From: Zygnema cylindricum
Lineage: Eukaryota; Streptophyta; Zygnematophyceae; Zygnematales; Zygnemataceae
Assembly: GCA_037447655.1 (NCBI GenBank)
Contig: JBBHKE010003062.1
Span: forward strand, 181,920-241,153
Reading direction: 5' to 3'
DNA length: 59,234 bases
A program made the translations under genes and the position numbers. Below are positions 8,460-52,059 of the stretch, one piece after another (position 1 is the stretch's first letter; each line of letters starts with the position of its first letter). Below the pieces are notes generated by a model. The model was not told the origin of the DNA. It did no database searches and saw nothing but the letters and a program-made list of their open reading frames with translations.

Positions 8460-9975
8460 CACCGCGAACCGCTACTAGGGTTAATCACGCTAATTAGGGG
8501 GTGTCCCCATGTAATCGGTACTTTGATAAAGTATTTTGGACTGTAGTGAAGATTCTCCGTACTACTTTGAAGAGCGTCCCAATGTGCGAAAATGAAATCG
8601 GAACTTTGACACGTGACGGTTCTCTAAATTAAGAATGAATGACGCTAAATTTTTTCTTTACTCTAATAATTTCCTTACGCTAATAGCGATTCGCGGTGTA
8701 CAGTACACCGCGAATCGTAATTAGAGTAATGAAAAAATTAGAGTACAAAAACTAAAAAAAAAATTATAGTAATTAACGCTAATTTATGTGATAGAGATGT
8801 TTCAACTATGAAGTTTACTCTAATTTATTTAAGTACTCTAATTTGGCACGCTAATATCCTATACTGTAAATAAGGTATACGTACAAAATTTGGCAAAACG
8901 TACAGTTTATAGTCACTATGACGTTTGCACTACGTGGTTTGTTAAAACGCAGTTACATGATAACGGCCTGTATTAAATCATTATTTGTACTTTTTTCCTT
9001 AATAAAGTACAGTTTTGCACGGTTGGAGGTTGTCCGTACTCCACACTATTTAAAACGAACCTATATTAGAATTAAAAACGCTAATTAAACTTTACCTTAA
9101 TAGAATAATGAAAAAATTAGAATCATTTACTCTATTTCATGTGATAGAGTCGAAATTTCGAGCGACCAAATTAAAGTAATTTACTCTAATTACGATTCGT
9201 GGTGTACACCGTGTATCGCTATTAGGGTTAATAATTTTTCGACACTTCAAACATCTTTTCTCCGTACACACATGTCGGATTGTGGATCTGACGGTTTCGA
9301 TTTAAATATTAAATTTTCAGCTTCCGATTGGCGGTGGCAGATTATAAAATCGTACCAGTGTACACTTAGAAAAGATGTTTTAAACTCGAATTGTTTTTTT
9401 ACGTTAATGTAGGTACTGTACTTTTCAATCAGCGTTAATAACTCTAATTTGGACACTTCTAAATAGTGTAATGTACGAAGTGATCCGGTCCGTACTAAAA
9501 CTGCTCAATATTTCGTACTGTCATACAAAATAAGTGTCAGATAAATGTGTCGACACGTGAAATTGAGGGTGTCGCCAAATAAAATCGCACTCATATTTGA
9601 TTCCTAGTTATAAAGACGAGGAAAATTCACGCGAACTTGTTCTAACGTGTTCAAACGTCATATATGTGAACACAGGTTATACCAGCTACACTATGGGAAA
9701 TAATATTTTAATTGCCCAAATTAGCGTTAGTAAATAAATAAAAGTAATTTCTTTTTGGCGAAGGGCCTCGAACTCAAACTAGTGTTAATAACGCTAATTG
9801 TTTTTGTACAATAATTATTTCTTAACGCTAATAGCGATTCACGGTGTACAGTACACCGTGAATCGCTATTAGTGTTCATGTTTTTTTTACCACTTATTAA
9901 TTCTATTTTTTGTTCGAGGGTTAATATTTGGGGGCGCTGAATCAGCGTTATAAACGCTAATAGCGATTCACGGTG
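8460..9975. mobile_element. Four TA-flanked MITEs laid end to end
   Basis: Four non-coding elements run 8460-8698, 8706-9204, 9207-9846 and 9854-9975. Each begins with a CACCGCGAATCGCTATTAG-like TIR and ends with its complement, flanked by TA. Neighbours are separated only by TACAGTA (8699-8705 and 9847-9853) or share one TA (9205-9206). Interiors are AT-rich with short CTCTAATT/ACGCTAAT motifs repeated inward from each end. No transposase is present. A TA duplication suggests the Tc1/mariner group, but the TIR starts CAC and I do not recognise the family. Confidence 0.75.
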
Positions 9976-10133
9976 TACGTTTGACCTGCGAAAAACAATA
10001 TAATCAACCGCTGGAGTTTTGTCGCGCCTATAAATGTCAACAACCGAAGCGGTCCGCTAACTGAACTGTAACGAACCAAAAAAATCAGTGTTGTGAGCAA
10101 GCACACTATTTTACCAAATTAGGGTGTGGTTAG

Positions 10134-10973
10134 TAGTGTTGGGTATCGAGGACCGTTTGCCGATATTCGATATATATCGAATTTCAGGTACCCGATAATT
10201 GATATATCGCTTCGATATATCGAATTTCAAATCATCGCGATGTATCTCCAATATATCGCATCTATATCGTATCGTAAATATATCGAAGCTAAAAAAAAAA
10301 AAAAGTCCCACAGGTTTTCAAAGTCTCGTGACTTCGGACAAAGTGACCGTAAAATCTTTGCCGGAAAGAAATACGGTTTTTTCCTGAAAGTCAGCAGAGT
10401 GAAGGAGATCTCTGAGGTACATTGACGCGGTACACTTGTGAAGTACACGTACGTTATACGCAGGTACGATTTTCCAGACGAAAAAGGTCGGTTTCCAGAT
10501 ATTCGAAGATTTTTTAGATTTGGTAGTCAGCTTACGTGGAACCACTCATATCAGAACGCGTATGTCAAACATTTTGACAAAAGATACGCGATGTACCCGA
10601 GGCCTCTGTAATACATTTTGTTTTCCGTACTATTACAGAGACCTCCTCGTGTAACCATACCCCAAATAATTAATTATTACAATTTCAGAATTAATACTTG
10701 TTTGTCGGTTACATTTAGCGGCGTCTACATTTAAGTCACGGAACGAAAATCACGGCGTACGTGGCGTATTAGACAATTTGACTTTTTCGCTAAAATAACA
10801 TATTATATAAAAAAATAAAAAATAAAAATATAGAAAATACTATACATCGCGATATATATCGCGATGATTAATATTGGTCTCGGTACGATATATCGAGGAT
10901 CCTGCTCGATCGATATTCGATATATCGAATATCGAGATTATCGCGACATGAATTTACCCGATACCCAACACTG
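10134..10973 (+). mobile_element. TATCGATATATCG-type MITE, copy 1 (complete)
   Basis: It begins TAGTGTTGGGTATCGAGG and ends with the complement CCGATACCCAACACT. Inside the TIRs both arms carry GATATATCGAA repeats that can fold back. A variable A tract of about 14 follows the left arm. The middle (10300-10690) includes CAGCAGAGTGAAGGAGATC and CTCGTGTAACCATACCCC. This second motif is a TIR-like end shared with the TTA-flanked elements, so the family may itself be an old composite. Non-coding. Confidence 0.8.
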
Positions 10974-11277
10974 CGATATAGAGTACATAAGTCTAATAAC
11001 GATTCACGTTGAAGTTTTCTTCTTTGCTTGAGAAAGCGTATCTAACAAAACAAGTAAATTACAGTACATTACAGTACAGTAGTCTGTACTGTACACCATA
11101 TATGTCCAATTCGTACGGATTTGGACTTTTTTACGAAAACTACGTAGTATTCATTTGTTTCGTAGCTGTCGTAAATTTCGAACGTCTCAAATGTACAAAA
11201 CATTGTACGGACATTAAAAAAAAAATTGCTTCATTTACGCGCTCTTATTTTTTATCTTGTCCTCCAATCAGTCTTCA
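10974..11277. other. Unannotated spacer
   Basis: AT-rich sequence containing a diverged TAATAACGATTCACG end near 10995 (a TA-MITE fragment) and GTACAGTA repeats near 11062-11095. No gene seen. Confidence 0.4.
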
Positions 11278-11431
11278 GAAGGAAGCCGCCGTTGGAGACG
11301 CCATAAATTCCGGCACGCGCCGCTAGTTCGTTGCACTCATCCGTTTTGTAGTTTTGCTTCATTTGCGACTCATATTTTTTTTTGTTCGGCGAGCCGCGGA
11401 ATTTATGGCGTCTCCAACGGCGGCTTCCTTC
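11278..11431. repeat. Perfect 35-bp inverted repeat with 84-bp loop
   Basis: The arm at 11278-11312 (GAAGGAAGCCGCCGTTGG...) is exactly complementary to 11397-11431. Each arm is preceded or followed by a GCTTCATTT module. A third, diverged version of the arm with the same flanks lies at 11953-11985, so the unit is a repeat that duplicated in inverted orientation. Confidence 0.85.
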
Positions 11432-11443
11432 AGCCGTTTTGCT

Positions 11444-11901
11444 CATAGTTCAAAAGTAGGCATTTTTTGGTAGGCCTTTTGTAGGCCGCCTTTAGCGTAA
11501 GTTGTGTTACGGGCTTTCCATGTGAACTTCTTAGATCGCTACTTTCATCAGCGACCGTCTGATCGTCCAAATCTGACGATAGTCCTATCGTAAGTTGTGT
11601 TATGGGCTTTTCATGTGATCTTCTTAGATCGTTACTTTCATCAACGACCGCCAGATCGTCCAAATCTGACGGTGTAAATAAAAAGTCGCTCAAAACTCAT
11701 AGAAAAAGATTTTTTTGTCCGGTTTTTTTTTCAAATTTAGACATGACGTTTAATTCTCTATCGATCCATGTGCAACTCAAACCCTGTAAATATTTTAATT
11801 CATTTTGCGGCCAATACAATATGGGTCTTAAGGCCATATTGTATGTTTTGCATACAATAGGCATATTGTATGGGCGTACGGTCACCTACTTTTGAACTAT
11901 G
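11444..11901. mobile_element. hAT-type MITE with perfect 8-bp TSD
   Basis: The 17-bp perfect TIR CATAGTTCAAAAGTAGG at 11444 is mirrored at 11885-11901. The 8 bp immediately outside are identical on both sides (GTTTTGCT at 11436-11443 and 11902-11909). An 8-bp duplication and a TIR starting CA are hallmarks of the hAT superfamily. The 458-bp body carries a 93-bp tandem duplication (11496-11681) and a palindromic CATATTGTATG region near 11812-11875, but no transposase. Confidence 0.85.
11496..11681 (-). repeat. 93-bp tandem duplication inside the hAT MITE
   Basis: Units start at 11496 and 11589 (CGTAAGTTGTGTTA) with about ten substitutions between them. The period is a multiple of three and the minus strand is open through both units, encoding a 31-residue repeat beginning SDLDD. 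I treat the open frame as probably incidental. Confidence 0.7.
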
Positions 11902-12302
11902 GTTTTGCTTCATTTGCGCGCACGTATTTTCATCTGTCCTCTAATCCCTCTTCAGAAGGAAACCCTCGTTTGAGACGTCGTAAATTTCGGCGCTCGCCTC
12001 TAATTCGTTGCACGTTTCAGTTTTTAGGGTTTTCAATATTTAAATATTTGAATTTGAAAAGTACACAAAAGTACGAATTTTACTTATGAATTTTAAAAGT
12101 TTGAAATTATTTTATGCGCACTCTACGTAGTATTCGTTAGTTTACTCCGTGCGTTTTATGCGCATATGACATCTATGCTGTACACCGCCAATCGCTATAA
12201 AGAGTAAAAAACCCTAATTACGTGTCCTTTAAAAAAAAAAAAAAACCTGAAATACAATCCATAAATCTATTTTTTCCATTATTCTAATTAGGGTTTTTTT
12301 TG

Positions 12303-12457
12303 TAGTGTTGGGTATCGAGGACCGTTTGCCGATATTCGATATATATCGAATTTCAAGTACCCGATAATTGATATATCGCTTCGATATATCGAATTTCAAA
12401 TCATCGTGATATATCTCCGATATATCGCCAATATATCGTATCGTCGATATATCGAAG

Positions 12458-12493
<36 letters not shown>

Positions 12494-12998
12494 CAGGTTT
12501 TCAAAGTCTCGTGACTTCAGACAAAGTGACTGTAACATCTTTGCCGGAAAGAAATACGGTTTTTTCTTGAAAGTCAGCAGAGTGAAGGAGATCTCTGAGG
12601 TACATTGACGAGGTACACTTGTGAAGTACACGTACGTCATACGCAGGTACGATTTTCAAGACGAAAAAGGTCGGTTTCCAGATATTCGATGATTTTTGAC
12701 ATTTGATCGTCGACTTACGTGGAACCACTCAAAAAAAAACACGTATGTAAAAACCTATTTACAGACGATACGCGATGTAACCGAGGCCTCTGTAATGCAT
12801 AAATTTTGCTGTCCGTACTATTACACAGACCTCCGCGTGTAACCATAATACCATACCCCAAATAATTAATCATTACAATTTCAAAATTAGTATTTTTTTG
12901 TCGGTTACATTTTGTGGTGTATACATTTAAGTCACGGAACGAAAATCGCGGCGTACGTGGCGTATTAGACAATTTGACTTTTTCGCTAAAATAACACA
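12303..12998 (+). mobile_element. TATCGATATATCG-type MITE, copy 2 (3' truncated)
   Basis: The left end is nearly identical to copy 1 but carries a longer A tract (about 28 A). Sequence matches copy 1 through the CGCTAAAATAACA motif and then stops at 12998, where TTAGGGTGGAC begins. The right arm that should follow is not found elsewhere in the window. Confidence 0.75.
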
Positions 12999-13266
12999 TT
13001 AGGGTGGACTTCCATTAGGCGTCCCAGTAATTGTACGGAAAATTTTACTGAAGGGTGTCGAGCGTGCCTGGTAACCAGGAGGTCCAGGTTATATGTCCAA
13101 GGAGGTGTGCATGAGAAACCTGCAATCCACCCCAAATGCTGATGCTCCCTTGGATCCGTGATAATGCCCATCTTTGTTCATTACCCCCCCCTAGGGATAT
13201 GCATAGATAGTAAAGAGGAATGCGGTGGAAAAGAAAGGTGCCCTGTACCCCCCCCCGAGATTTCCC
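12999..13266. mobile_element. Left end of a TTA-flanked TIR element
   Basis: TTA (12999-13001) followed by GGGTGGACTTCCATTAGGCG matches the TIR style of the elements at 25163, 39617 and 41456. It interrupts MITE copy 2 at a TTA present in the intact copies. No matching right end with a TTA duplication is visible. The following 230 bp, up to the broken reverse transcriptase, are not recognisable as retroelement coding sequence. Confidence 0.45.
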
Positions 13267-13818
13267 CGCAGTCCTCTCTCGGTGTTTCGGCTCCATTGCA
13301 ATCTGGTGGAATCCATTTTTCATATCCAAAGTGGAGTAAATGGTGGCCCCAGCAAGAGAGTCTAAGATCTCTTCCGGGGTAGGCATAGGATAACGGTCGG
13401 AGACAGTTGCCGCGTTGAGCATCCGATAGTCCCCACACATCCGGAAGTCTACAGTTTTTCCGGAGGAGTCTTTCTTTGGCGGGAGCACTGTTGGTGAGGC
13501 GAACCCATGTAGTCCTGTACTCTCCTGAACCAGCCCAGCTTCCACCAAAGTATGCACCTTTGAAGTGATGAACTCCTTCTCCTTGAAATTGAGAGGGTAT
13601 TGTTTCTGCCAAACAGTATCCGTCTCGTCGATCAAGTCAATCCGAAAGGGAGTCCCTTTATAGATCCCTACATCGGTGTCAGACCAGGCAAACACCTGCC
13701 CGTTCTCTTCTAACAGCTTGGAGAGTCGGGCCTTCTGCTGTGGGTCTATCTGTTCACCTAGAGTCCAGTCCATCTTCCCGGGTTCCACTGCTGCCAATGC
13801 TTCCAGTGGTCTACCCAA
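13267..13818 (-). pseudogene. Gypsy reverse transcriptase, N-terminal part
   Basis: RNA-dependent DNA polymerase domain of the gypsy pol. Visible blocks are a PVFAW-like region (QVFAWSDTD), LPPKKDSSGK, FRMCGDYRMLNAAT (the vDYRxLN box), YPMPTPEEIL, and STLDMKNGFHQIAM, which includes the first catalytic Asp. Similarity ends after EPKHRERTA near 13267. The remaining palm with YxDD, the thumb, RNase H and integrase are absent. It is in a different frame from the methyltransferase; the shift falls at a CTCTCTCT run near 13820-13830, a likely slippage indel. Confidence 0.85.
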
Positions 13819-15287
13819 GAGAGAGAGATGTCGAAGGTCGCTCTAGCTGTGGGTCCGTCCCTTGTTCGGCTGTTAAAACACTGCTGGTGACAACTTCCTC
13901 TAAGCTGTCCTGTTTTGAGACTCCGCCCCCCCCCACTAAGGAAACTCCTGGGTCCAGTGTGCCATTGCTCCCCCCCACTGAGGAAGTTCCTGGGAATTTG
14001 GTGAATGTGAACTTTTCCCTCCTTGTCTCTCCCCCCCCCTCGAGCTTTAGAGTTGCTTGCATGGCCAACAGTTGTGGAGCTTGAAGGTATGTTGTCCGTG
14101 ATTTTAGAGACTGAAGGCTTGAGAATGCAAGAGAATGTTTCAGCACCCAGGAAATTGCATTTAAATCCATGATTTGTCCGATTAAACTGCACCTTCTTGA
14201 AGCCGATACCCCTGGCGCAGCTGTGGTTCCCTGTTGAAACCCCATTGCTTGTTCCCGTTCTGTAATATTCGGCGCTGTCCACGTGGCGGTTGTACTGTCA
14301 AAGATCATTCCTGGTGCGCCCTTCCGGTAAGCGTGGCTATTAGGAAAAGATACCAGAATTGGGAGGGCCCTCCGTGGATACCCAGGCTTATTACAACAGA
14401 AGAAGGGTGCTTTGTCGGCTGTGATCACCGGTGTAGCCATTCGCCCAGGTCCGAGGATTTGTTGGACCGTGATGTTGGGATCTGTAACCTGTGTTCTCAA
14501 CAGCTGTTGGAGGATTGAAAGAGGAACCAAGTTGGTCCAATATGCCCGAACTCTGTGGGCTCTTGATCCGATCTGAGCTGCATCAAAAACTATGGGAGTC
14601 CCTAGAACCTTGGTCAATTAGTTCCAGCTGTTGACCACCTGTTTTCTCTTATCATCTGTGGGGTGAACGTTATCCAAGACGTACCCCACTGGTGTGTCCT
14701 GGCGTACCTGTAACCCTGTTATTAGTCTGATCATTTGAAAGAAAGTTCTGCTACGAACGTCCTGGTGTCCTCGGCCCTGTCCTGCTAACGAATACCCTTG
14801 GCATGGCCATCCAGCGACCACAAGGTCTACCCTTCCGAGCTTTTCCAGATGGGACTCCGTGATATTATCCACATTCTGGGGAAGCGTTCGATGAGAGTTA
14901 GACATGGCGGACACCGGGAGTTGCTGTGGGTAAAGTTGGTGCAGCTGTTGCAGGCGGTACTCACTGACTGCACGGGCGTCCGGGTCAATCTCGACTGCCG
15001 AGTAAGTTTCTATTTGGTATCCAGCTTTCAGGACGGCTTCCAGATCGGAACTAATGCCAGAAAATAGGGATAGAATCCTAAGTCCTGAAAGCGGGATTTG
15101 TAGTGACACCACTTGTCGATTGAAGTCTTTCCCTTTGTTAGGAACCGTAGGAAGTTCCGACCTGGGGACTTTTGCTGCTCCGGGTGATATTGCAGCTAAG
15201 CTCCTGTCCACTTCCCGCCGAAGTGTGGCCATCTGTACCAATCGGTTCTGATACTCCCTTTCCCACCGCTTGGAAATAGGGAATTGC
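13811..15287 (-). pseudogene. Retrotransposon-encoded DNMT3-like C5-cytosine methyltransferase
   Basis: This would transfer a methyl group from S-adenosylmethionine to C5 of cytosine in DNA. Motif I (LSLFSGI, about 15073-15053) binds AdoMet. Motif IV (GWPCQGYS) has the catalytic Cys codon at 14801-14803. Motif VI reads VLDNV (near 14674) instead of ENV. Motif VIII (RAHRVRAYW, about 14563-14537) and a GRMAT/target-recognition-like stretch follow, then a C-terminal REQAMGF block (about 14257-14237) with a terminal SLIGQ (near 14180). The unpermuted order and the LSLF, DAAQI...RAHRVR and EREQAMGF blocks resemble animal/plant DNMT3 more than DNMT1, and exclude circularly permuted plant DRM. It is continuous in frame with the protease upstream. 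A TAG at 15285-15287 and a TAA at 14618-14620 interrupt it. About 318 aa make up the domain; the downstream part to 13811 is low-complexity linker. It is a broken copy, but every major motif is readable. Confidence 0.85.
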
Positions 15288-15466
15288 TAGAAAGAATCAG
15301 CGATATCGTTAGAGTATTTGAACAGCTCCGAGGGGGTTGAGGCAGAGTAGACGGTATAGCATCCAGACACCGGAACAGTCGTTTTTCCCCGGTTCCACAA
15401 ATCCAAGGGGACCACCACTTTTGTTCCTTCCGGATCCTCAGGGTCTGAGATTGTAACTTGTTCCTT

Positions 15467-16195
15467 CTATACGCTCAACTCCATGTTCAACCTTGTCCAC
15501 GTAGCCATACCCAGCAAAATTTCAAATTGCTTACCTTCCACCACTAGGAAGGGAAGCCGAATCTGCACGTGCTGGCCTGTGTCGTCAGCAAATTCGACTT
15601 CCATGGCTTTTATGATCCCATATACTGGTTGGCTGCCACTGCTGACTGTGCTCAAGCATATGTCACTTGGACTGATTTCTGGCTGGAGTTCCTCAGGCAT
15701 TTGTTGTAACGCTGATGTAGTTATTAAGTTTGGAAGAGCTCCGGTATCCACCACTGCATCCTGGTACCCGCCGTATCCATTAAGTTTAAAATTTCCCGTC
15801 CTGTTGAGAATAAGAGCCACCGAAAGGGCCTTATAATCCCTATCTGCCATAGAGGTTTTTGGTTCTGCCGACATGAAGACTGTCTTGGGCGGTTTTGCCA
15901 ACGCGACCCTTTTCCTCCTAGTGTGAATTTCTTCCCCTAATGCCTGAATGAGGGTTTCTTCGGGCAGATTGTGGGAGGAAGCCAGCGTTTTGACATGCGT
16001 CAAGGCGTAGGGCATTAAGTGTCGTACTAGCATAACTGCCGGTTTGGAGGAAGGAGGGAGAGCTTTGGGCGATGAAATGGGTGAGTCCTTGTCTTCCAAT
16101 TTCTCCTGTCCCCCCCCCCCTTCTTCCTCACTTTCTGCGTCAGAATTCCCCGTAGGAGGTGTAATTGGCGGATCTGTGGACGGTCTCTCTGCCAT
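15467..16195 (-). pseudogene. Gypsy aspartic protease
   Basis: Retropepsin-type protease that cleaves the element's polyprotein. The active-site motif is VVDTGALPN (about 15748-15735), the DTGA form typical of LTR elements, followed by hydrophobic strands and a final ILLGMATW (ILG-like) block near 15500. An acidic, Pro-rich segment with a poly-G run (16100-16112) precedes it. A TAG at 15467-15469 separates it from the same-frame methyltransferase region. The shift from the gag frame lies near 16195-16205, where the sequence fits a 2-bp indel. Confidence 0.8.
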
Positions 16196-16929
16196 GTATA
16201 TCTGTCAAACCACTCCTGATCTGTTTCAGTGGTTGAAGTATTTTCTTTTGGCTGTGTCTTCTTGTATTCTTCAAAACCGGGAAGAAGTTTCTTCGGAGCC
16301 GGAGGAGGCGGGTTAGTCGGCTTGAGTCCCAGTCCAATGTCACTGTTTAGAAGTACTGCTCGCGGGGTAAAGGATAAGGGGCCGGTGGCTTTGCGACTGT
16401 GGTCCTTTTGTTCCATCGGTTGTTTGTCTTTTCTTTGGAAGAATGTGGTAGAGCGCAGTTGCCTGCGACTGTCCCCTACACCAACGTTCCATGCTCCGGA
16501 CAGAAATGTCCTAGCGTGCTGAGCCTTTGGAGGCTCCATATCCCAACCCATCGGGTCATCCTCATCTCCACCCAACGTGGTCTGCTGCTCCAGCTCCGCT
16601 AGCTTTTGTAGCAGTTCTTGCTTTTGTTTCTGCAGTTTCTGAGCTGGCGTAAGAGGTTGAGGAGTGGGGGCAGAGGATCTCAGTCGGAGAGCGGCCAGTT
16701 CTGTTGCCAAAGCGGCCAACTGAGTGCTATGTTGCTGAATGATATGTTCCGGTGTCAGTCTGCTGGGCCCCGGTTCATTTGGAGATCGTCCCCAGGGATA
16801 AAAAAGTTGCAGTGGCAGAGGATTAACGGCAGTTTTCCCTTCGCCTGTAAACAATGCATAATGCATCATTTCCTTCGAACCCCATTTTTCCGAAAGCATT
16901 GCTCTTCTTTGTGGCCTATGAACCCACAA
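16027..16929 (-). pseudogene. Gypsy Gag/spacer region between knuckles and protease
   Basis: Open for 300 codons in a frame different from the knuckle and protease frames. It contains a Leu/Gln-rich, coiled-coil-like stretch (LTPAQKLQKQKQELLQKLAE) and then Pro/Lys-rich linker. The part below about 16200 reads as gag-frame overrun across the protease N-terminus. Role: spacer or capsid-associated coiled coil; no enzymatic domain is visible. Confidence 0.6.
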
Positions 16930-17471
16930 GCTTCACATTTTGACCCTTCAGTAGTATACTTCCCCCTGAGCTCATTAGAGATTTGAGCGTCATCGAATTT
17001 CGGAAGTCTGATTTGTCTCAACTGGGATTGAGACATTTTGGCGGTTTCAGAGCGTGGAGTAGGTTTATAGGTTTCCTTAGTGACCGGGGTTCGGTCTCCT
17101 CCTCCGCCTCCTTGCTTGCGTTCTTGCTGTTTCCTTGTTCTTTCCGCCCGCTCCCTTTCAAACTCCTTCTGCTTGATGGCGAGTTCTGGTTTGAGCTTTC
17201 GGGGGCACCTCTTCCATCCGTGACCTGGCTGGTTACAATTCAGGCAATCGTAAAGAAAAAAAAATTCATCTCCCCCCATTGCAGGTTCAAGTTGGGCATC
17301 CGCTTCGTGTTTCCCCTTAAGCTTCCGCAAAGCTTGCAGTTCTGCCTGTTCGTCGTGGCTGGGCGATGTTTCCCTAGCGAAACTTGCAAAGTTGGTTCTG
17401 GATTTCCCGGTAACAGCCTTTTCTCGTGCCTCGCTATTAACAAAATTATCATACAATTTTATAGCAGCCAA
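16866..17471 (-). pseudogene. Gypsy Gag nucleocapsid with two zinc knuckles
   Basis: Nucleic-acid-binding part of Gag. The first knuckle CLNCNQPGHGWKRC (about 17250-17205) and the second CEACGFIGHKEEQC (about 16930-16890) both fit C-x2-C-x4-H-x4-C. A basic Arg/Glu/Gln-rich linker lies between them. Upstream is a helix-rich segment (NSEAREKAVTGKS). The frame differs from both neighbours, so the gag reading frame is broken on each side. Confidence 0.8.
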
Positions 17472-19621
17472 TGAAATTTCTTGAGCTGTGGGATTTCGAT
17501 CGTGTATAGCCTGACTGGCGCTCCAATTGTCGAGAGCTGCCTGTCCCGTCGGCCCGAAGGAATTTCAAACAGCGACATAATATTTGGTGGCCATAGTCGG
17601 TGTATCTATGGTGGACAGTTTGGTCTTCTGGCAGAGGCTGGAGAGTCGCTTGAACAGCGTTTAGGGGAGTTTCATTCTTCAAACAGCGGAAGTCTGTGAA
17701 CTCCTTGATAGCAATTTCGTTCCTTTCTGTGTAAAGGAGTCTCCAAGCGTCCAGAAGGGTGGTATAGGGATCAGGATTGGCAACCATCCGGGTGGCCGCT
17801 TCGGCTGCTTGTAAAGCTTGAAGGTGGTTGACATAGGCCCTGCCTTGGGCCTGAAGTTTCATATCCATGGTGAAAGTGGGGGTGAGAGGAGCTGCGGCTG
17901 CGGCAGCCAGGTCGGCTGCTGCCTGAAGAGCCTTGGCGTCCAGATCAGGATCCGCTATTTTGATACTGGGGGCCATTAACAAAGGTTGACGCTCCTTGTA
18001 ATCGGCCAAAGCTCCTCCGGCTAGATAATTTACCATCATTGGAAACAGGGTTGTTTCAAAATCTACTGGAATGGCCCCTCCCCTGTATTTGTTGATTTGA
18101 GATTGGGTGAACGACTTCTAAAGCAGTTCGAAATCAGAGAAGCGATTCCCGAGCTATCTCCTGTAAAGATCCTTACGTCCCCCATTTCTTTTTCCGCCTC
18201 TGCAAGGTTGGTGAACTGTGAAGAGGATGTGCCGGTTGGGCTAACAAACTGAACCGGTGAAATTACCCTTGGATCTGCGTCGTCTGGCTCGGGCTTGCCT
18301 CCTTCTCCGGTAGAGGGAGCGGTCTGATGAGAGATGGCACTCCCCCCCACTAAGATGTTCTGGTTACTGGTGGGATAGTGAGATGACCAGTATCTCCCTA
18401 ATGTTGACCCTTGGGAAACGAGGAGCTTATCCCCTTGGGAAAAGCTGCTCGAAGTCCTGCTCCACTATACCCAGGAGAGGCCCGTTCCTCCCGTTGAAGT
18501 GTTTCCACCGAGGGAATGTGGAGAATAGGTTTAGTCACCGGTGGTACTTGAGGGATTGGTGGAGAAGGGGATGGAGATGACCGAGGACTACGATGGAAAG
18601 GTGTTTGTCTCCGTGTACGCCTTTTGGAGGTTTCGGGTGGAGGAGTTCCTTCGCTGGAACCGGGAGAACGTCGGTGAGGAGGAGAGTAGGCAAGAACGTC
18701 GTACTTGTAGGGTAAGACGGGTGGTCCCCGTGACCCACGGACTGCAGCGGCCGGAGATATAGAAGGCGAAGGAGAGGATGCCTGAGGTGGCGATGGAGGA
18801 GGAGTAGTGAGTCCGAGGGAAATGTGTAGTCTTTGGTCTGGTTCTAGCTGCACCACGGCCTCCACGGTAGAAGATCCCTCGACCGAGACAAATGTAGGGA
18901 GATCTGTAGCCGCGGCCACCAGATTACTCGGCAAATCTGCACCCAACCCGTTTTTTTTAGGCCCTGTGGTTTCCTCCCCTTCCCCCTGAAGAGGAGATTT
19001 TGGTCTCGGTTCTGGTGAAGTCCAGGGATCTCGCGTGGCAAAGGGAGTTGCTTGATCCAGAGGTTGTTCTTCCGTCGTGGGACCTGTTCTACGGGGAGGT
19101 GCTACCTGTCCACTAAGGATTCCCCCAGATTTCCGTCTAGCCTCCCGTATCAGGATCAGCTCCTTTTCCAATGCTTTCTTCCTTTCCTCTTCAAGGGCAT
19201 CCTAATCTATAGCGACGGGTCCGGCCCCCGCCGTAGCCTGATCATGCGATCGCAGAATCTCAACCAATTTCTGGGTGCTGCTCACCACACCCGAGAGATC
19301 CGCAATCCCCAAGCCGGGTACCTCGGGGTCCGTAGGCCTTGAACGCCATAGTCCTTTGGATGGTCAGACAACTGGTGCGCAAGGAGACATAGAACTTGGG
19401 GAAATTGAGGCAGAAGGAAAGAACGGCTCTTCTTTGATGAGGGGAGCAAATCGACCTTTGCTGTCCCGATGGTTGAACCGGAAATCTCTCTTAGGCTTAG
19501 GTATCTTCCGCTTGCTACTCCCTTCCCTGGTCCGGCCCCGAGATGTTGCTCTGCCCCTAGAAGGTCTACTGGTAGCAGTTTCCTGAGATATGGTGGGCTG
19601 TTGTCGTGCAATAGACGGCAT
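17449..19621 (-). pseudogene. Gypsy Gag N-terminal and capsid region, fragmented
   Basis: A run of minus-strand open blocks in shifting frames. 19621-19364 is a basic Arg/Ser-rich start. 19171-18398 is long, Pro/Ser-rich and disordered (TTPPPSPPQASSPSPS). 18350-18063 and 18039-17449 are folded, capsid-like and rich in Ala and Leu (NHLQALQAAEAAT, LLDAWRLLYTERNEIA). This is the expected order of a large gag precursor. Exact joins cannot be decided because of indels, and the true start may lie beyond the N gap. Confidence 0.6.
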
Positions 19622-19627
19622 CTCCGG

Positions 19628-19637
19628 NNNNNNNNNN
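19628..19637. other. Assembly gap (10 N)
   Basis: Ten N mark a scaffold join. The gypsy element ends just left of it and a different repeat begins right of it, so the two sides may not be truly adjacent. Confidence 1.
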
Positions 19638-22104: not shown

Positions 22105-23390
22105 CTCCAACACACACCCCCCCCAACACAAACAACTTCCCCCCCGCCACCGCCAACCCGCAGCTCTCCCTCCCCTGCAACACCCCTCCCCCAGGTCCGT
22201 CCAAAAACCCCGCCAAGCCCCCTCCCCCCACCCCCCCCTCTCCCTCCCCTTCCCTCCCTCCTTCCCCCTCCCCCCCCCCCCACCTCCAACCCACACAACT
22301 CGTTCTCAAAATACCCCACAAACGCGTTCGCCCTCGTGTCATAAAACCTCAACTTCAACGCCCCACACCCCACCCAAAATATACTCCCTCTCCTCCCTCT
22401 CCCTCCCTTCCCCCCCTTCTCCCTCTCCCCCTCTCTCCCCCCCTCTCCCCCCTCTCCCCCCTCTCCCTCCCCCACCCTCCCCCCCCTCCCACGCCACCGG
22501 CATCGCCTGGTCGTGCCACGGCACCCCCCACACCTTCGGCGCCGGACACTCCACATCCACTACACTCCACTTCCCTCCACCCCCCCCACCCCCCCCCACC
22601 CCCCCTCTCCCCCCCCCTCTCCCCCCCCCTCCCTCCCCCCCCCCCTCGGGTCGTACACCTCCATCCGTACCGGCTGCATCAGGTCCCCCGGCTGACACCC
22701 CCCCCTGTCGCCGCACCCCGTCACGTAGACCTTTCCGTACAGGCTGGCGGCCGTACACACGTGCCACGCCGAGGCCATCGGGGGCAGCGCGCGCCACGTG
22801 TCGGTGCCCGGGTCGTACAGCTCCGCTGACGTCAGCGCCACGTCAGCGCGGTCGCGGCCGCCGGCGACGTAGACTTTGTCGCCGAGGGTCGCACAGGCGA
22901 AGCCGGCGCGGTATTGGAGCATGGGGCGAGAGGGGGTCCAGACACGTGTGGAGAGAGAGAAGCGCCAGCAGCCGGGGGGGGGGGGGGCGGCGGTGCTTCC
23001 CTCCCTCTCTCTCCTCCTCCCTCCCCCCCCCCCACCGGGGGGGGACCCCTCGGAGGTCCCCTCTCTCTCCTCTGGGGGGTCTCTTCCCTCGTCGCGCTCC
23101 TCCTCTCTCGCTCTCCCTCGACCGACGGCGGTTTTCCATTTGGAGAAGAGGGTGTCTCTCTCTCTCTCCCTGTCTCTGTCTGTGTTATTTTCTCTCTCTC
23201 CCTCTCTCTCCTCCTCCCTGGGAGGGGGTCCGAGGAGGAGGATTTCCCCTTTGAGAGGGACCAATCCGAAGGCTTGTCTTTGGGGGTGGAGGGAGAGAGG
23301 TCGCTTGGTCAATCGACGATCGACCAGAATCAGGAGATCGTCGAAGGCGAGGAGTTTGCGTGGCAGTTGTCTGCCGTCACGTCAGGATCA
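22105..23390 (-). CDS. Kelch-repeat protein gene, interrupted by polypurine tracts
   Basis: A beta-propeller (kelch) protein, probably a protein-interaction or F-box/kelch ubiquitin-ligase adaptor; that role is inference. Coding-like modules on the minus strand are LPRKLLAFDDLL...KGEILLLG (about 23390-23250), WTPSRPMLQY...VYVAGG...AELYDPGTDTWRALPPM...VYVTG...MEVYDP (about 22972-22648, two kelch repeats with the GG and Y...W hallmarks), KWSVVDVE...HDQAMPVAW (about 22575-22491), GALKLRFYDTRANAFVGYF (about 22385-22290) and GRESCGLAVAGGKLFVLGG (about 22225-22105). The later modules lie in different frames (mod 3 = 2, 0, 2, 1). Between them sit 60-280 bp tracts of G and A, so the tracts are either introns or frame-breaking expansions. 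A possible acceptor (GACGGCAG|ACAACT) precedes the first module near 23390. No F-box is visible in the window. GC is much higher than the surroundings. Confidence 0.65.
22973..23250 (-). repeat. Polypurine insertion between kelch modules
   Basis: A 280-bp GA-rich stretch on the minus strand splits a kelch repeat between ILLLG and the following CWRFSLSTRVW. Read through, it gives a Glu/Arg/Gly-rich insert of about 90 residues, unlike any propeller loop. Similar tracts lie at 22576-22647, 22386-22490 and 22226-22289. Confidence 0.7.
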
Positions 23391-27721: not shown

Positions 27722-28097
27722 GTGTTCTTAATTATAATATAGGTTCGTTTTAAATAGTGTGGAGTACGGACGACCTCCGACCGCTCAAAATTGTACTTTA
27801 TTAAGTAAAAAAGTACAAATAATGATTTAATACAGGCCGTTATCATGTAACTGTGTTTTAACAAACCGCGTAGTGCAAACGTCATAGTGATGATAAACTA
27901 TACGTTTTGCCAAATTCTGTACGAATACCTTATTTACAGTAGAGGATATTAGCGTGCCAAATTAGAGTACTTCAATAAATTAGAGTAAACTTCATAGTTG
28001 AAACAGCTCTATCACATAAATTAGCGTTAATTACTCTATTTTTTTTTTTAGTTTCTGTACTCTAATTTTTTCATTACTCTAATTACGATTCGCGGTG
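27722..28097 (-). mobile_element. TA-flanked MITE, truncated inverted copy
   Basis: Reverse complement of most of the element at 8706-9204: both share TTAAATAGTGTGGAGTACGG-type interior and end GATTCGCGGTG followed by TA. The inner end is cut where the TTA-flanked element at 25163-27718 inserted. A more diverged relative covers about 30415-30770. Confidence 0.7.
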
Positions 28098-29095
28098 TAC
28101 TGTACCCGTACCCGCCCGTACCCGAATAAGTACAAAATTAATGGTACATCTCCCTTACACCTTCCACAATACCAAAAGTACAAAGTACAATAATGTTGGA
28201 TCGTATCATAGAGGTACCAAGCGTTTTAAACGCACGCATGAAACGTCGAAAAAAATAATGATATATGCGCACGGAACAAATGCAAAAAAAAAAATGCGTT
28301 GACTGACTTTGACTTCATAATAAAATATAAAATAAAAAAACATTTAATCCAAAGTACTACTACAACTTAGGGTATATGCTCATGTATGAAAGTACCGGGT
28401 ATTTTATTATATCTTCCGTCAAAGATTTTCTCGCGGCTTCCGCTGGCCTCGCATCGCATATTTTTAGATAGTGTTATGTACGAAATGTGTCATTTCGTAC
28501 TACAACTGCTCTTTATTCGTACAGATGTACAAAATAAGTGCCAGGTAATGGCGTCGACAAGGAAAATTGAGTGTGTCGCACGGAAAAGCGTACTCAGATA
28601 TTGGTACTGTTTAAATAGCGTTAGTTACTAATTTCGAATGTTTTTAAATAATGTAGCGTATGAAATGTGTCGGTCCGTACTAAAGCTTGTAATTATTTTG
28701 TACAATCGTACAAAATAAGTATCAGATAAAGGCGTCGACAGTGGAAATTGAGTGCGTCGCACAGAAAATCGTACACAGATTTGATTCCTAATCATAAAGA
28801 CGAAGGAAAATAGTGCTAACTTGTTCTCACATGTTCAGGCGTCGAATATGTGAACACGACTTTCGCGGCTATCCTAAAAACATGGGAATGTGTATCTATT
28901 TCTTAACTTTAATAGCGATTCACGGTGTACTTTCAACCTTTTTTTTAGAATTTCGTACGTCTAATTAGTACATTTTTCCGTACATGAGAAGTATACAAAT
29001 CTAATGAAAACTTCAAAATCTTAAAAAATTAACGCATTTTCGTAAAAAAGTGAAAATCCGTATGTTTGGTACCTCTATGGATCGTATGGACACTA
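28098..29095. mobile_element. MITE-derived mosaic
   Basis: 28103-28200 resembles part of the hAT-like element at 44889-45573 (GTACCCGCCCGTACCCGAA). 28490-28600 and 28670-28860 are two tandem diverged copies of sequence also found at 9490-9700 (ACAAAATAAGTGTCAGATAA). A TA-MITE right end (GCGATTCACGGTGTA) lies at about 28914-28930. No gene. Confidence 0.55.
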
Positions 29096-29654
29096 CACCA
29101 CCAATCGCTATTAGCGTAGTGTACGCTAATTCCGTCCCGCTTTTTTTTTATTATTCTCCAATAGCGTAGCTTATTCTATTTTTTTCTGTACGCCATTTAG
29201 GGTTATTTTCCAAGTACCGTACAAATTGGATGTACGTTATCTTTTAAATGGTTTGGTGTATGGTAAGAGTCAGACCGTACAAAGACGTACCTTTTTAAGT
29301 GAAAAGGTACAATTCACTATGTTTAGTAGCCGCGGACGCATGAGAATGTGCGGTCTAAAAAGGGGATCAAATCGGGTTGTCAAATATCACGTTCGCATAT
29401 ATTCGTCCAACAACCACGTTTCGACTGTGTGAACGTACGATTTGTGGACGATTTGTCAGATTTTGTACATATACCTATATTAGTGTAAGCATGTTTGCGA
29501 CCGGCATTTACTTTTTTCAAAGACCCAAATTATAATTATTAAACAATTAGAACGTATGTTTTTTTTCAAAATTTTCAAATTCTTAATTTGCGTAAACCAC
29601 GGTAATTATTCATATACGCTAAAGAAACTTCTACGCTAATAGCAATTGGCGGTG
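29096..29654. mobile_element. TA-flanked MITE (559 bp)
   Basis: Left TIR CACCACCAATCGCTATTAGCG and right TIR (complement) CACCGCCAATTGCTATTAGCG match at 18 of 21 positions, with TA on both sides (29094-29095, 29655-29656). AT-rich and non-coding. Confidence 0.7.
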
Positions 29655-29734
29655 TAGTGTACTGTACAATACTCTACTGTACTGCAGTGGAACTGTGGAA
29701 CGTACTTACGAAAACTTCAATTTCTTCCGTTTTT

Positions 29735-30330
29735 TGCTTATCCGGCCCGTACCCGAATTTGTTTTTTTTTTTAATCATCCGGCCGAATCCGGCCGGCCCC
29801 CAAAGTTTGGCACCCGAATCGTTTCCGTATCCGACGCGACCGACCGGGTACGGATTGGGTACAGATTCGGGCACCCAATTGGCGACCTCTATCTGGAGAT
29901 AATTTTGCATTTGCATTCGTATCGAGTGGCACTAAAATAACACATCGCCAGGTCGTAAAGGACTGCCAGAGGTCGCAAAAGTCAAAATTATACATAACCG
30001 AAACCCACCGTTTTTTTTTTTCAAAATGTGAGTAACCGTCGACCGACCGGGTTATGTCACGCTCCAAAATTGTTAAGCGTTAACAGACTGGCGTTTACAA
30101 AAATAAAAGTTAACCGAAACTCGATTTCTCGCGACTAACCGTGCCCGCCCGTAAGCGAAAAAGTACAAAATTAATTAATGTATGACGTATGAATAAGCCA
30201 ATAATTACGATTTGTCGCGTTCCCTAAGGTTTGCGAAATGTTTAGTGTTACTACTGTGTCAGATTTGCGACGCTTTGTCGCGTTCCCTAAGATTTGTGAA
30301 ATGAATAGTGCTACCGTAAAAAAAAAGTTA
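29735..30330. mobile_element. hAT-like element fragments
   Basis: 29735-29894 matches the right end of the element at 44889-45573 (CCCAAAGTTTGGCACCCGAA ... GGCGACCTCT). From 29967, CAGAGGTCGCAAAAGTCAAA starts a second fragment in the same orientation that includes two 63-bp tandem units at 30213 and 30276 (TGTCGCGTTCCCTAAG). Neither is complete. Confidence 0.6.
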
Positions 30331-31326
30331 TTGTTATCCATTCTAATTTAAATTTTTTCGTTTTTTCAACAATGTTTTACTCTAATTTATCAATAACTCT
30401 AATTTGGGTTTATGTCCGTAATAATTATCCGCTTTGAATATCTTTTAGGTACATATTCAAAATCTATCAAATCGTACAGTTTCACGTCATTGTGACATTT
30501 GCACTACACGGTTTGTGAAAACGCTGTTACATCATAACGGCAAAATTAAATCATTTTTTTTACTTTTTTCGTTAGTACGGTACAATTTTGTACGTCAACC
30601 ACACTATTTTAAACGACACTATACTAGAGTTGTTAACGCTGATTCAAACAATACATTTTATAATATAAAGAAAATTTTAGAGTTATTTACTCTTTTTAAG
30701 GTTTTTGGGTCAAAATTCGTGGTGACGCAATTAGCGTTAATAACGCTAATTACGATTCGCGATGTTGTGTAAATGGAAAATTTTGATTAATAATACTATT
30801 TAATGCAAGGAGACGTGGCAAGTTATAGTCCATGTATTTAAATAATGTTGTTAACTATATTTTGTGATTTTCGGCTATAAATAGTAGCTACTTATTAATA
30901 CTAATAATAATGAGTGGTGTAGTGGTACATCTCCCTTTGCAAAAAGACAGCTCGTGTACCTCTTCTTTTTACTATTTTATCTTTTTGCAATCTCCCTTGA
31001 CGAATAATTTTTTTTCTCGACAATCACCTCTTTCAAGGGATTTGTTCCTAATTTTGCGCGTAACTCTTAGATTCTGACACGTAAATTAGTCTTACATGTA
31101 CGGATATTTAAATTTCACGACGGCGTACGATTTTTTATATTTTGTACGGATACATATATTAATGTGTATAATCGTACAACGAATATTCCGTTTTTGCTGT
31201 TCCCAAATTAGCATAAACGCCGAAATTAGAATACATTTTTTTTTTTTAAATCTTAATTAGCGTCAATGACGGTATATTTACTTCCACACTATTTAAACTT
31301 TGACACTAATAACAATGCGCAGTGTA
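30331..31326. mobile_element. Diverged TA-MITE and AT-rich spacer
   Basis: 30415-30770 is a diverged relative of the 8706-9204 element, ending TTACGATTCGCGATG. The rest, to 31326, is AT-rich with no gene. Confidence 0.45.
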
Positions 31327-32030
31327 CACCGCGAATCGCTATTAGCGTTAATCACACTAATTCGGCACCCCTAAATTTTTACCCTAATTCCTTAACAGAG
31401 TAATTAAAAAAACCCTAAAAACCAAATTAGAGTGACTGATTTCCTTGAACATCACCAAATTTCCAATTAGCGTTGATCACACTAATTGCTCTTTAACGCT
31501 AAATATTTGTTAACGCTAATAGTGATTCGCGGTGTCCTGTACACCGCGAATCGCTATTAGCGTACATCATGCTAATTGGGGTACCTCTTTTTTTTCGGCA
31601 TATTCTCAAATAGAATAAAATACGCTAAATTTTTCTGAACGTTATTTGAGGTACCCCGCTCAATACGGTTGATAACTGTAATTTAGTGCCCTTTTAAATA
31701 GTGTGGTGTACGGACTGTCATATTTGTACTATTCCGTACCTTCTTAAATATAAAAGTACATAAAGTATAATAATATGTAATTGCGTAAATATTTTCCGGC
31801 ATACGCGGATGTCAAAAAAACGCGACGGCGTACGATTTGAACAATTTCGTACATCTACATGTTTTAGTGTGGACATATTATGTGCCGAAAATTTTTACAA
31901 AGCATTTTACAAATTAGAGTTAATGATAAATTAGTATCATTGTGTACCCTAAAAAACCCAATTTACCGTAAAGTACGCTAATTGTTTCATTACGCTATCT
32001 ATTTTATTACGCTAATAGCGATTCACGGTG
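31327..32030. mobile_element. Two adjacent TA-flanked MITEs
   Basis: 31327-31534 and 31542-32030, both with CACCGCGAATCGCTATTAGCG-type TIRs. They are separated by TCCTGTA, the same arrangement as TACAGTA at 8699 and 9847. The right TA of the second is also the left border of the next MITE at 32031. Confidence 0.7.
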
Positions 32031-32895
32031 TAGTGTTGGGTATCGAGTAAATTCATATCGCGATAACATCGATATTCAATATTTTCAATATATCGATTAT
32101 CGATCGGTCATACTTCTCGTTATATCGTACCGGGACCAACATAGATTATCGCGATGTATTTCACGATATATAGTACTTTTTAAATTTAACATTTTTTATA
32201 ATAAGTTATTTTATCGAAAACAAAAAAAATGTTTGATACGCCACGTACGACGCGAATTTTGTTCCGTTACCTCAAGGAAGACGCCGCAAAATGTAAACCA
32301 AGAAAAACTACTACTTCCTAAAATTACTTATTTAGTACGTAGAGAACTTCAATATTTCAAACGAAAAGCTCACACTAATTTAGTCAAATAATGATCTGAT
32401 AAAAAAAAATTGCACTGTTTGTTTCAGCCAGGAATACTTACCAATCAGCAGACAAGAAGCATTACATTGATACTTATCCATTTCCAGCGATTAGTATTAT
32501 AGAAAGGTTACATTTTTAGCTTTCTCCATGGATTCCCAAGGGATAGCTTTCTCCATAGATTCCGAAGGGTTAGCTTTCTCCATGGATCCCACTTATCTCA
32601 TATTTTTGAAATCACATTTTTCAAGCATAATGTGAGAGAAAACCACAAAAATAGATCGAAAAACCAGAAAATAAAATATGGAGCATGTATGGGGACACAA
32701 ACACCAACGGATAGTTATAAAAACCAAGAAAAAAATCTTCGATACATCGCGATTTATTATATCGGCATATCGGCCCGATATATCGACAAAATATCACGAT
32801 ATGTAGCTTCTCGATATATCGAAGCGATATATCGATTACCGTGTGCCTAAAATTCGGTACATATCGAATATCGCGGTCCTCGATACCCAACACTA
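32031..32895 (-). mobile_element. TATCGATATATCG-type MITE, copy 3 (inverted)
   Basis: It begins TAGTGTTGGGTATCGAG and ends CGATACCCAACACTA, in the opposite orientation to copies 1, 2, 4 and 5. The central third is different from the other copies and contains a 27-bp x3 repeat (TAGCTTTCTCC at 32517, 32544, 32571). TA-flanked on both sides. Confidence 0.75.
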
Positions 32896-33480
32896 CTCAC
32901 TACTCCGCGAATCGTTATTAGCGTTATGAACGCTATATCGTCAACCCCAAATTTTGACCCCAAAACCTGAAATAAAATTAGTAACAATATTTTTTTTTAC
33001 GTTAATTAAGGTTCTTGTGAATTAGCGTTAATAATTATAATTTATGATCTTCTTGATTAGTGCGGTGTACGGACGTGTCAGTCCGTAAAAAATGGTACTT
33101 TGTTAAGCAAAAAAGTACGAAACATGGATTAAAATAATCGCGATCGCACGTAAAATTGCGCTCAACATAAAAGACAGAATGAGATCGTACCTATTTTCAT
33201 GTAAATATATTGATCGCGTATTAATTATACTTATGAATAAACTATAGTAAAAGGACGTAACGGTGTACAATTTTGTCTGATTTTGTACTTTTACCTATTT
33301 TACTGTGAAGAGATCCTAATGGCACATCCGTTGTATCCAAATCAACGTTATGGATCAATTAGAATTTTTTTTTTTTTTTTTAATTTTGAAAAACTCAAAT
33401 TACCATTAATAACGCTAATTATTTTTTAACACTATTAATTTCTAAACGATAATAACTATTAGCGGTGTAGTAAATCAATG
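32896..33480. other. MITE ends and AT-rich spacer
   Basis: CCGCGAATCGTTATTAGCGTT near 32905 and TAACTATTAGCGGTGTA near 33455 look like the two worn ends of a TA-MITE. No gene. Confidence 0.4.
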
Positions 33481-37111: not shown

Positions 37112-38275
37112 ACAACGTACAAACAATACGAAGTCACAAAATTTGTATTGCCTGCAGTTAAACGTCTCAAATTATAGCCGTTTGGAAGTTTCGCAACATT
37201 TTGTGTACAACTTCAGGTGTCACAAGTTGCGTACAAGTCTACATATGTCATTTTTTTAACTAATAATTACATTACGTTCCATCAGAACACTCTAAAGGTA
37301 GTACATAAAATCTTCGCTAAAAATCAAAGTAGTAAGAGTAAGTTTCGGTTACATCGGAAAGTGCCCTTAGTCTTATTATTTGTGTTTTAAAACAATTGTT
37401 GTACCTATTTTGTATTTTTTTGTTTGGTTAAATTTTTGGTATCGTATTTATTTGTGTGATGTGGGACATCTGTCGGCCGTTTTGGACTCCAAGGCAACAT
37501 GCACTGGCAACATTTCATTGTAACTAAAAAATTTTGGTTAGTACACCCGGAATCCCTATCGGTGTAAAAAAGTATTAGTGTTAAAAATCAAACGGTATTA
37601 TCCGTCGTAGTTGTGTTCAGGGACCCAAGGCCAACATAACATTAACGTTAATTAACGCAAATAACATATTGCAGATACGCATTCCCTTAAATGTAGTCGT
37701 TGTAATATGTGTTCATGTGCTTCTCGTTTTAACATGTGATAACAAGTTTGCGTAATCTTCCCCCGTCTTTATTAATATGAAACAAATATGAGTGCTCCTT
37801 GCATAGATGTCTCATGCGCATACAACGCACACATAAAACGCACGAAAAATAACGAATATGCGCACGAAACAAAATTCAAATGTTTTTAGAATGTGTGACC
37901 GAATTTGAATTCATGTTAACGGTTTTTAGGGTACATTTTCGTACATTGCGTATATTTCAGTATAATTGCCTTACATTTTATGTACATCTACGTACAGTGT
38001 CCATATTTTTCCGTACTTTTTAGGTCTATTTTTTTAAAGGTTTTTAGGGTACAGTTTCGTACATTCTCTTATACTTCAGAGTAGTTGCGTTGCATGGTTC
38101 GTACATTTACATATAGTGGCCGTACATTTTTGTCCTTTTAAGGCTATTTAAAGGGGAATTTAGGGTTTTTACTTTTTAGGCTACATTCATTCACGTTCCC
38201 TCATTTTTCAGTACAATCGCATTAAATTTTTCGTACTTTAAATTATTTTAGGGTACACGTCCCGTATAATTTTAT
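37112..38275. other. AT-rich unannotated region
   Basis: No gene. Internally repetitive between 37920 and 38180: TTTTTAGGGTACA followed by CGTACATT recurs about three times. Confidence 0.5.
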
Positions 38276-44301: not shown

Positions 44302-44429
44302 TACTGTAACACTTTCATTGACACTTGTCACCAATCCTTGTAAAGAAAGGACCATTTATATTGCTAAACTTGCGATGGAGAGATCATTAAGGTACAAAAG
44401 GGATAAAACCAAAAAAGAAGTATAAAAAG

Positions 44430-49929: not shown

Positions 49930-49934
49930 ATGTC

Positions 49935-50506: not shown

Positions 50507-50624
50507 GGGCTTTTGTGAGGAATTCAGCTAGTTGCTATGAAGTGGGAGAGCAGGTGAACGTGACAGGGCTTTTGTGAGGAATTCAGCTAGTTGCTCTGAA
50601 GTGGGAGAGCAGGTGAACGTGACA
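50507..50624. repeat. 59-bp tandem duplication at the copia 3' end
   Basis: GGGCTTTTGTGAGGAATTCA starts at 50507 and again at 50566 with one substitution, so it is recent and gives two near-identical RNase H C-termini. Confidence 0.9.
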
Positions 50625-52044: not shown

Positions 52045-52059
52045 GGCGGCTGAATAGGA

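Follow-up and report, generated by a model that had tools for sequence, protein, structure and literature searches.

A Ty3/Gypsy family of Zygnema cylindricum with a DNMT3-class methyltransferase in pol and permuted terminal repeats

The window, that is the whole stretch of 59,234 nt of Zygnema cylindricum contig JBBHKE010003062.1 analysed here, contains on its minus strand (19627-13056) a decayed copy of a Ty3/Gypsy retrotransposon with the order gag, protease, DNA methyltransferase (DNMT) and reverse transcriptase (RT). The remnant (13056..19627, minus strand, as are all its parts) was delimited by its match to another genomic copy, C1374, with which it aligns in three blocks of 91.5, 95.3 and 92.6% identity. 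It belongs to a group of elements that we term family B. Its 3' end, ...GACA at 13056, is common to C1374 and a further copy, C544. The 5' end is missing; the match stops at an assembly gap of 10 N (19628..19637), and the 5' end is not present past that gap. Gag remnants with two CCHC knuckles (CLNCNQPGHG and CEACGFIGHK) were read from two frames at 16869..18117, where a Pfam search gave no match. The aspartic protease frame (15470..16204) includes VDTGA, and its match to Asp_protease_2 lies just below the cut-off (16195-15467; 2.6e-4, 22.1 bits against 24.3). It is separated from the DNMT by a readthrough-like TAG CAA TTC (15281..15289), with the same nine bases in genomic copies. The DNMT3-like methyltransferase (14123..15088) has motifs I, IV, VI, VIII and IX/X in order by alignment, and the Pfam match to DNA_methylase is above the cut-off (15241-14618; 1.4e-11). 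The first half of the RT follows (13268..13647; 127 of 243 reference residues, 96% identity), with RVT_1 matched just above the cut-off (13818-13045; 3.3e-7). Comparison of copies shows a 212-base terminal piece, B (13056..13267), that starts with four G of a G tract and is fused directly to the broken RT.

A preliminary description of this locus had read motifs I (LSLFSGI), IV (PCQ), VIII (RAHRVR) and REQAMGF in unpermuted order in the frame of the protease, and we find them so. Motif VI reads DNV in this copy and ENV in four other translated family-B copies. The DNMT comprises 322 residues that are 96% identical, without gaps, to those of a sister copy, L012. The placing of a DNMT3-class domain between the protease and RT of a Ty3/Gypsy pol is likewise supported, by Pfam, by comparison with sequences of the PDB and by genomic copies. 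The description needs correcting in that this copy is no longer intact. Its frame meets a stop at 15467-15469, then the conserved UAG at 15287-15289, and a further stop within the DNMT (14618..14620). The frame shifts between DNMT and RT, and the RT ends after residue 127 of the reference at the junction with the 212-base 3' terminal piece. The deletion took the remaining RT, RNase H, the integrase and a PHD finger. With its stops, frame changes and deletion from the RT to the 3' end, the window copy is dead. A chance match was considered and rejected on the profile matches and the copy number, and is excluded because many genomic copies share the layout. On these sequence comparisons the element is almost certainly a member of a large Ty3/Gypsy family with a DNMT3-class methyltransferase in pol.

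The genome assembly (353 Mb in 2689 contigs) was searched for better copies, yielding relatives with single open reading frames (ORFs) and copies with both termini. A search with PF00145 scored 123 of 782 candidates, and 12 stretches of 9.9 kb were fetched around some of the matches with long frames. Locus L009, of a second family that we term A, has one ORF of 2395 aa encoding two CCHC knuckles, MDTGA, DNMT, RT, RNase H, integrase (H2C2 and rve) and PHD finger. Locus L012, of the window's family B, has gag and protease frames followed by a 1520-aa ORF running DNMT-RT-RNase H-integrase-PHD, its PHD match of 17.5 bits lying below the Pfam cut-off of 24. In both ORFs the Pfam matches run from RT through RNase H to integrase, so that the integrase lies after the RT as in Ty3/Gypsy elements. 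The integrase is of the DDE type, with rve and H2C2 domains, and Pfam finds no phage-type integrase (tyrosine recombinase) in either ORF. An alternative genetic code was rejected, as the L009 frame is free of stops under the standard code. The two families are only about 42% alike in DNMT.

Family B is large in this genome. An RT search gave at least 134 matches scored of 3761 candidates, at 79-100% identity, and a DNMT search at least 131 scored of 1790. At least 70 of the 134 RTs have a DNMT upstream among the matches listed: 58 at a distance of 426-826 bases, and 12 more taken from 29 of the 123 PF00145 rows. Relatives lacking the DNMT were looked for among the remaining 64 RTs; the ten fetched all carry DNMT coding sequence, whole or nearly so in five and partial in five. 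We also looked for the DNMT as a separate insertion. This was rejected: in the better copies one ORF (2395 aa in L009, 1520 aa in L012) passes through the DNMT inside the termini of a single element. The DNMT domain thus belongs to the element. One RT match (G000:C961:71677-72552) lies in an open frame of 5743 aa, far longer than the element ORF. Two other loci, L003 (on C412; 59-62% identical in DNMT to the window's family) and L020 (on C1100; 51-52%), suggest by their sequences that there are further families in the genome.

We compared the family-B DNMT, using the L012 sequence, with the sequences of the PDB. DNMT3A was closest (1.9e-14), and 29 DNMT3 sequences ranked above HhaI (8.5e-5), with DRM2 at 0.37. 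By sequence comparison the enzyme is of the DNMT3 class. A structure model was available for a relative, P0073, rather than for the window protein. It has a mean pLDDT (per-residue model confidence) of 73, with most of the DNMT part above 90, and it superimposes on DNMT3A/B catalytic-domain chains with TM (fold similarity) scores of 0.77-0.82 by target length (best 50 of 571). As modelled, P0073 has the DNMT3 fold. For its integrase part the intasomes of prototype foamy virus (PFV) and Ty3 are top by E-value, with poor superposition (root-mean-square deviation 14-16). A DNMT exon of a different class was seen at L007 (1501-1749), where the best PDB matches are 9mvy, 7ubu and 4fsx at 8e-28, against 7e-12 for the next, a DNMT1. 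We take these three to be plant chromomethylase (CMT) structures, and the exon is probably that of a CMT-like host gene, in keeping with a host of the green lineage. A third protein search listed 11 proteins, none of them by that listing a host-type DNMT3.

Two further protein searches gave 82 relatives (45 and 44, with 7 shared), all with a DNMT match. RT is also matched in 57, integrase in 64 and a PHD finger in 52, the PHD following the integrase in all 52. There are two domain orders. In 14 proteins, including Klebsormidium P0077 and two Closterium proteins, the DNMT precedes the RT (order I). In 43, including Haematococcus P0012, it follows the RT, and precedes the integrase where both are found (order II). 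Four Marchantia proteins are gag-protease-DNMT frames. A branch of the RT tree (97/93) separates order II from the other rows, and in the DNMT tree order II forms a single branch of 56 rows (support 99), this including one Haematococcus fragment without RT; the DNMT tree and the first RT tree are quick trees, and P0082 was excluded from the third. The difference in order may have arisen by one capture followed by a domain move, or by two captures. Because three DNMT-free RTs fall, in this third tree, among the order-I rows (weak support, 54/27), a single capture is not established. Genome contigs provided two loci with RT and integrase and no DNMT match, which serve as outgroups in the tree. 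Among viral contigs the order-II alignment found no match, and the order-I alignment found 21, all confined to the part of the query that is DNMT (residues 924-1190). Pairwise distances for DNMT are correlated with those for RT (r 0.73, n=54; none of 2000 permutations as high), so the two domains have mostly travelled together.

Does the enzyme act on the DNA of the element itself? We consider the chances even. The alternative is that it does not, being a passenger, a modifier of RNA, or a means of slowing the element to spare the host. RNA methylation and attenuation are discussed as options for the related enzymes (PMC5890265; here and below, cited papers are used for the parts available to us). 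Conservation was examined in 82 aligned domains, 80 from database proteins and 2 from the genome, with 2 database proteins excluded as too short. Immediately ahead of the catalytic Cys, 52 domains have Glu, 29 have Pro and 1 has Asp, so that motif IV is ECQ in 52 of the 82; this counts against self-methylation and in favour of the alternative. Yet the catalytic Cys itself is kept in 81 domains, the motif VI Glu in all 82, and each motif VIII Arg in 80. Judged by the ratio of nonsynonymous to synonymous substitution (dN/dS), the family-B DNMT is under purifying selection, with values of 0.12-0.51 in ten pairs. In family A, eight of ten pairs are saturated in dS with dN of 0.11-0.20, and one gives 0.16. 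The saturation, and a remaining pair at 0.75 (in which dN is inflated by 12 non-aligning residues at the start of the L019 row), weaken the case there. The conserved residues, the selection and the co-inheritance with RT all argue against a non-self-acting enzyme, as does the de novo CG methylation reported for related enzymes, the retrotransposon DNMTs of 2018 (PMC5890265), and we regard that alternative as rather doubtful. CpG depletion was tried as an indicator and is not decisive (observed/expected 0.63-0.69 for family-B stretches, 0.88-1.03 for family A, 0.72-1.36 elsewhere in the window).

In family B the sequence TAG CAA TTC stands between protease and DNMT at all 12 genomic places read (13 loci, L006 repeating L012). 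Three of these, L003, L059 and L060, came from a search that already required CARTTY, so that for these loci the TAG and the final C alone count as independent observations. The codons ahead of the nine bases are variable, and the DNMT identity of L003 is only about 60%. L020, the more distant relative, was not reached by the stop-context match. The leaky stop context of the tobacco mosaic virus type is CARYYA, all six bases of which are reported to matter in the test context of that paper (PMC4132726). UAG-CAA-UUC has C as its sixth context base; this departure counts against leakiness. Even so, it is probable that ribosomes read through it.

The family-A PHD finger is closest to that of PHF12 (3e-16), then to fingers of BAZ2B, WSTF, KDM5 and PHF21A. 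Several of these read unmethylated H3K4. We suggest tentatively that the finger could steer integration by a histone mark.

The complete copies have permuted repeats, in the arrangement A1-coding-B1-GC-A2-B2. For family A this is seen at the level of sequence in C1344 and C829, and for family B at the level of coordinates in C2183, C2344, C10 and C1769. In C1344, A1 is at 85514-86444, the ORF at 87534-94718, B1 at 94737-94978, A2 at 94981-95911 and B2 at 95912-96154; C829 has the same order of A1, ORF, B1, A2 and B2 on the minus strand. The C1344 insertion is recent, because its A copies are 100% and its B copies 99.6% identical. The outer ends are TGTC and GACA, and the G tract precedes B1 in both families. 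These copies lack identical direct long terminal repeats (LTRs) at their two ends: the 5' end carries A1 and the 3' end carries A2-B2, while B1 is internal. They have instead the split direct repeats of the DIRS type and, with a Gypsy pol and a Dnmt3, the combination of features of KnitGypsy-Dnmt3. We infer that an ordinary LTR, of the form B-GC-A, would exist only in the cDNA. A 4-bp target duplication is found in seven of the ten copies for which both flanks were read: C1344 (TTGG), C829 (AAGG), C10 (TTTC), C1769 (AATT), C2344 (AAAA, a run of A) and two solo A-B forms, C2526 (ACTT) and C321 (CGTT). The binomial probability of this is 1.6e-15 at 1/256 each, ignoring base composition.

The inner joint, B1/A2, is GACA-GC-TGTC (GACAGCTGTC) in nine of ten copies read, and GACAACTGTC in the tenth, L053. 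With its centre left free, the pattern GCWCGACANNTGTCAWGC has 226 + 222 = 448 matches in the genome, and its backward reading none. The A2/B2 joint behaves quite differently. Of the 32 places examined, 21 allowed it to be read. The strings, each of them unique, fall by eye into about 18 types that vary in the G retained from the tract (0-4), in trimming of the ends and in short fillers. C1344 and C1407 are 99.7% identical in DNMT and have different A2/B2 joints, C1407 being without roughly 230 bases of A2 and 14 of B2. Because such near-identical copies differ there, the joint is not inherited. In L044 and in the window copy a truncated interior is fused to the start of B, the fusion in the window copy including its four G of the tract.

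Taken together, the sequences of the repeats and joints lead us to propose, with a probability of roughly 0.6, that the element integrates from end-joined DNA cut at the inner site. Readthrough of UAG-CAA-UUC would yield the DNMT-RT-integrase part. Reverse transcription, its plus strand primed at the G tract that precedes B1, would give linear DNA with B-GC-A LTRs. Imprecise joining of the ends of this DNA would produce a two-LTR circle or else a concatemer; concatemers would leave the same trace as circles. The DDE integrase would then recognise GACA-GC-TGTC inside the LTR, drop the GC, and insert the TGTC...GACA ends with a 4-bp duplication, and the joined ends would persist in the insertion as the A2/B2 joint. 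The permuted repeats and both kinds of joint would follow from such joining of B-GC-A ends and an integrase cut at the inner palindrome. In this scheme the DNMT, made together with the RT, might methylate the cDNA so that it arrives pre-marked, and the PHD finger might direct integration via a histone mark. There is a precedent for the cut, in that the integrase of foamy virus is reported to cut the LTR-LTR palindrome of two-LTR circles in vitro (PMC1180852).

Several observations fit the proposal less well. C1374, C544 and C2183, three of the ten copies, are without the 4-bp duplication, and C1374 and C544 have the form A-interior-B without A2-B2, which requires recombination or a one-LTR form. 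No A2/B2 joint was found at 11 of the 32 places examined; some of the variation among the strings comes from point mutation, and L035 and L042, which have a flank in common, probably represent a single insertion. A TGG about 20 bases before the end of A in the copies read was noted by eye, without a match to a tRNA.

A DIRS-like templating has also to be considered, in which the cDNA would be made without either terminus and the inner B1-GC-A2 would serve as template for their completion and for closure, with no joining of ends. The repeat layout matches that of DIRS elements, as the legend to Figure 4 of PMC5890265 says for KnitGypsy-Dnmt3, and the inner joint contains both termini as such a template would. 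But templating predicts a copied, precise A2/B2 joint, and the one observed differs between places and between near-identical copies. Moreover the integrase is of the DDE type and the target duplications are of 4 bp, and there is no tyrosine recombinase. We therefore think templating unlikely. It is very improbable that the permuted layout is an artefact of assembly or of ectopic recombination between ordinary LTR elements. The assembly is in many contigs (2689), and the A-interior-B and solo A-B forms do exist. Yet the same layout occurs in two families so dissimilar in DNMT, with 448 inner joints and with target duplications at the outer ends, and the window also contains a Copia-like element flanked by direct repeats of the ordinary kind.

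The centre of the inner joint has changed in many copies. Among the 100 matches listed of the 448 the central pair is GC in 61, AC in 16, GT in 15, AT in 4 and other in 4; most of the changes listed are C-to-T on one strand or the other. If the adjacent CA is freed instead there are 319 matches, and a count by eye over about 100 of those listed gives 14 that are not CA, TA accounting for 6. Both central cytosines lie in CAGCTG, a CHG context, and among the matches listed their frequency of change is about three times that of the CA beside them (39/100 against 14/100, Fisher p 1e-4), in a comparison with one neighbouring dinucleotide and with two patterns that overlap in the copies matched. The changes fit a decay driven by methylation, whichever enzyme was responsible. 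Extending the proposed integration from end-joined DNA, one might envisage a Gypsy clade with members in streptophytes and a chlorophyte that joins its linear cDNA ends instead of inserting them and cuts an inner palindromic site, which would make its insertions circularly permuted, its DNMT serving the joined intermediate, for example by marking the cytosines of the cut site; this wider idea is somewhat speculative.

Elsewhere in the window, direct repeats at 49934-50346 and 54713-55126, 93-95% identical, surround minus-strand frames (50590-52059) labelled Copia-like by eye, and form an ordinary LTR element. A Kelch-motif exon (22560-23312, minus strand; Kelch_1 4.6e-18, Pfam) lies in very CT-rich low-complexity sequence. 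Dispersed short repeats around ACGCTAATAGCGATTCGCGGTGTA occupy 8623-9848 and 28022-33469, including eight 78-base units with 60-79% identity to the reference. CpG observed/expected is 1.30-1.36 over 24000-50000. A repeat family of several hundred bases is present in three to four copies (10117-13001, 38259-39088 and 44413-45953), one of which directly adjoins the 3' end of the element.

Chromoviruses have a histone-reader domain after the integrase; the element described here differs in having a PHD finger as reader, plus a DNMT. Capture of a DNMT by LTR elements was known, as the preliminary description said, and the presence of Dnmt3 in Gypsy and DIRS pol has been described by de Mendoza et al. 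(2018; PMC5890265). DNMT3s in LTR Copia and DIRS elements are also mentioned, as reported before, in PMC12344493, and the available parts of PMC6338049 and PMC11244446 contain nothing further on DNMT3 in retroelements. A DNMT3 inside a Gypsy pol is therefore not new, the central observation having been published for Klebsormidium. KnitGypsy-Dnmt3 of Klebsormidium nitens has, as here, an unpermuted Dnmt3-type domain in a Gypsy pol, DIRS-like repeats and purifying selection (PMC5890265). Nor is the position of the DNMT within pol the novelty once suggested, since Klebsormidium P0077 has the same order of DNMT, RT and integrase; P0077 differs in being a partial protein with no PHD match. KnitGypsy copies are described as fewer than those in Symbiodinium, against at least 131 family-B DNMT matches here, and the available description mentions no leaky stop, palindromic inner joint or irregular A2/B2 joint (PMC5890265). 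Relative to the preliminary description, what is added here is how widely the family has spread in the genome, together with its PHD finger, leaky-type stop and permuted repeats. In titles and abstract openings, with subscription journals mostly outside the coverage, we found neither this integration route nor a Gypsy-DNMT-PHD element described, and no second report of a Gypsy-DNMT element beside PMC5890265.

SymbioDIRS-Dnmt3 of dinoflagellates similarly has a Dnmt3 in pol with RT and A-coding-B-A-B repeats, but carries a tyrosine recombinase where the present element has a DDE integrase and 4-bp duplications (PMC5890265). Dnmt3 is found in DIRS and Gypsy elements that share this repeat layout, and by analogy it may be joined or circular DNA that the methyltransferase serves. 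With hundreds of copies, and with both PCQ and ECQ enzymes, self-methylation by a transposon becomes testable. Integration from two-LTR circles was once proposed for retroviruses and later set aside (reviewed in PMC1180852), and a route from end-joined DNA would be unusual for LTR retrotransposons. If the proposal is correct, genomic copies that record end-joined intermediates would be a natural case of such a route with a DDE integrase. The two-LTR circles of foamy virus offer the closest parallel, with an integrase, a palindrome made from both termini and the loss of two bases; there the palindrome is the LTR-LTR joint, whereas here it lies inside the LTR-like B-GC-A unit and the insertion retains the LTR-LTR joint (PMC1180852).

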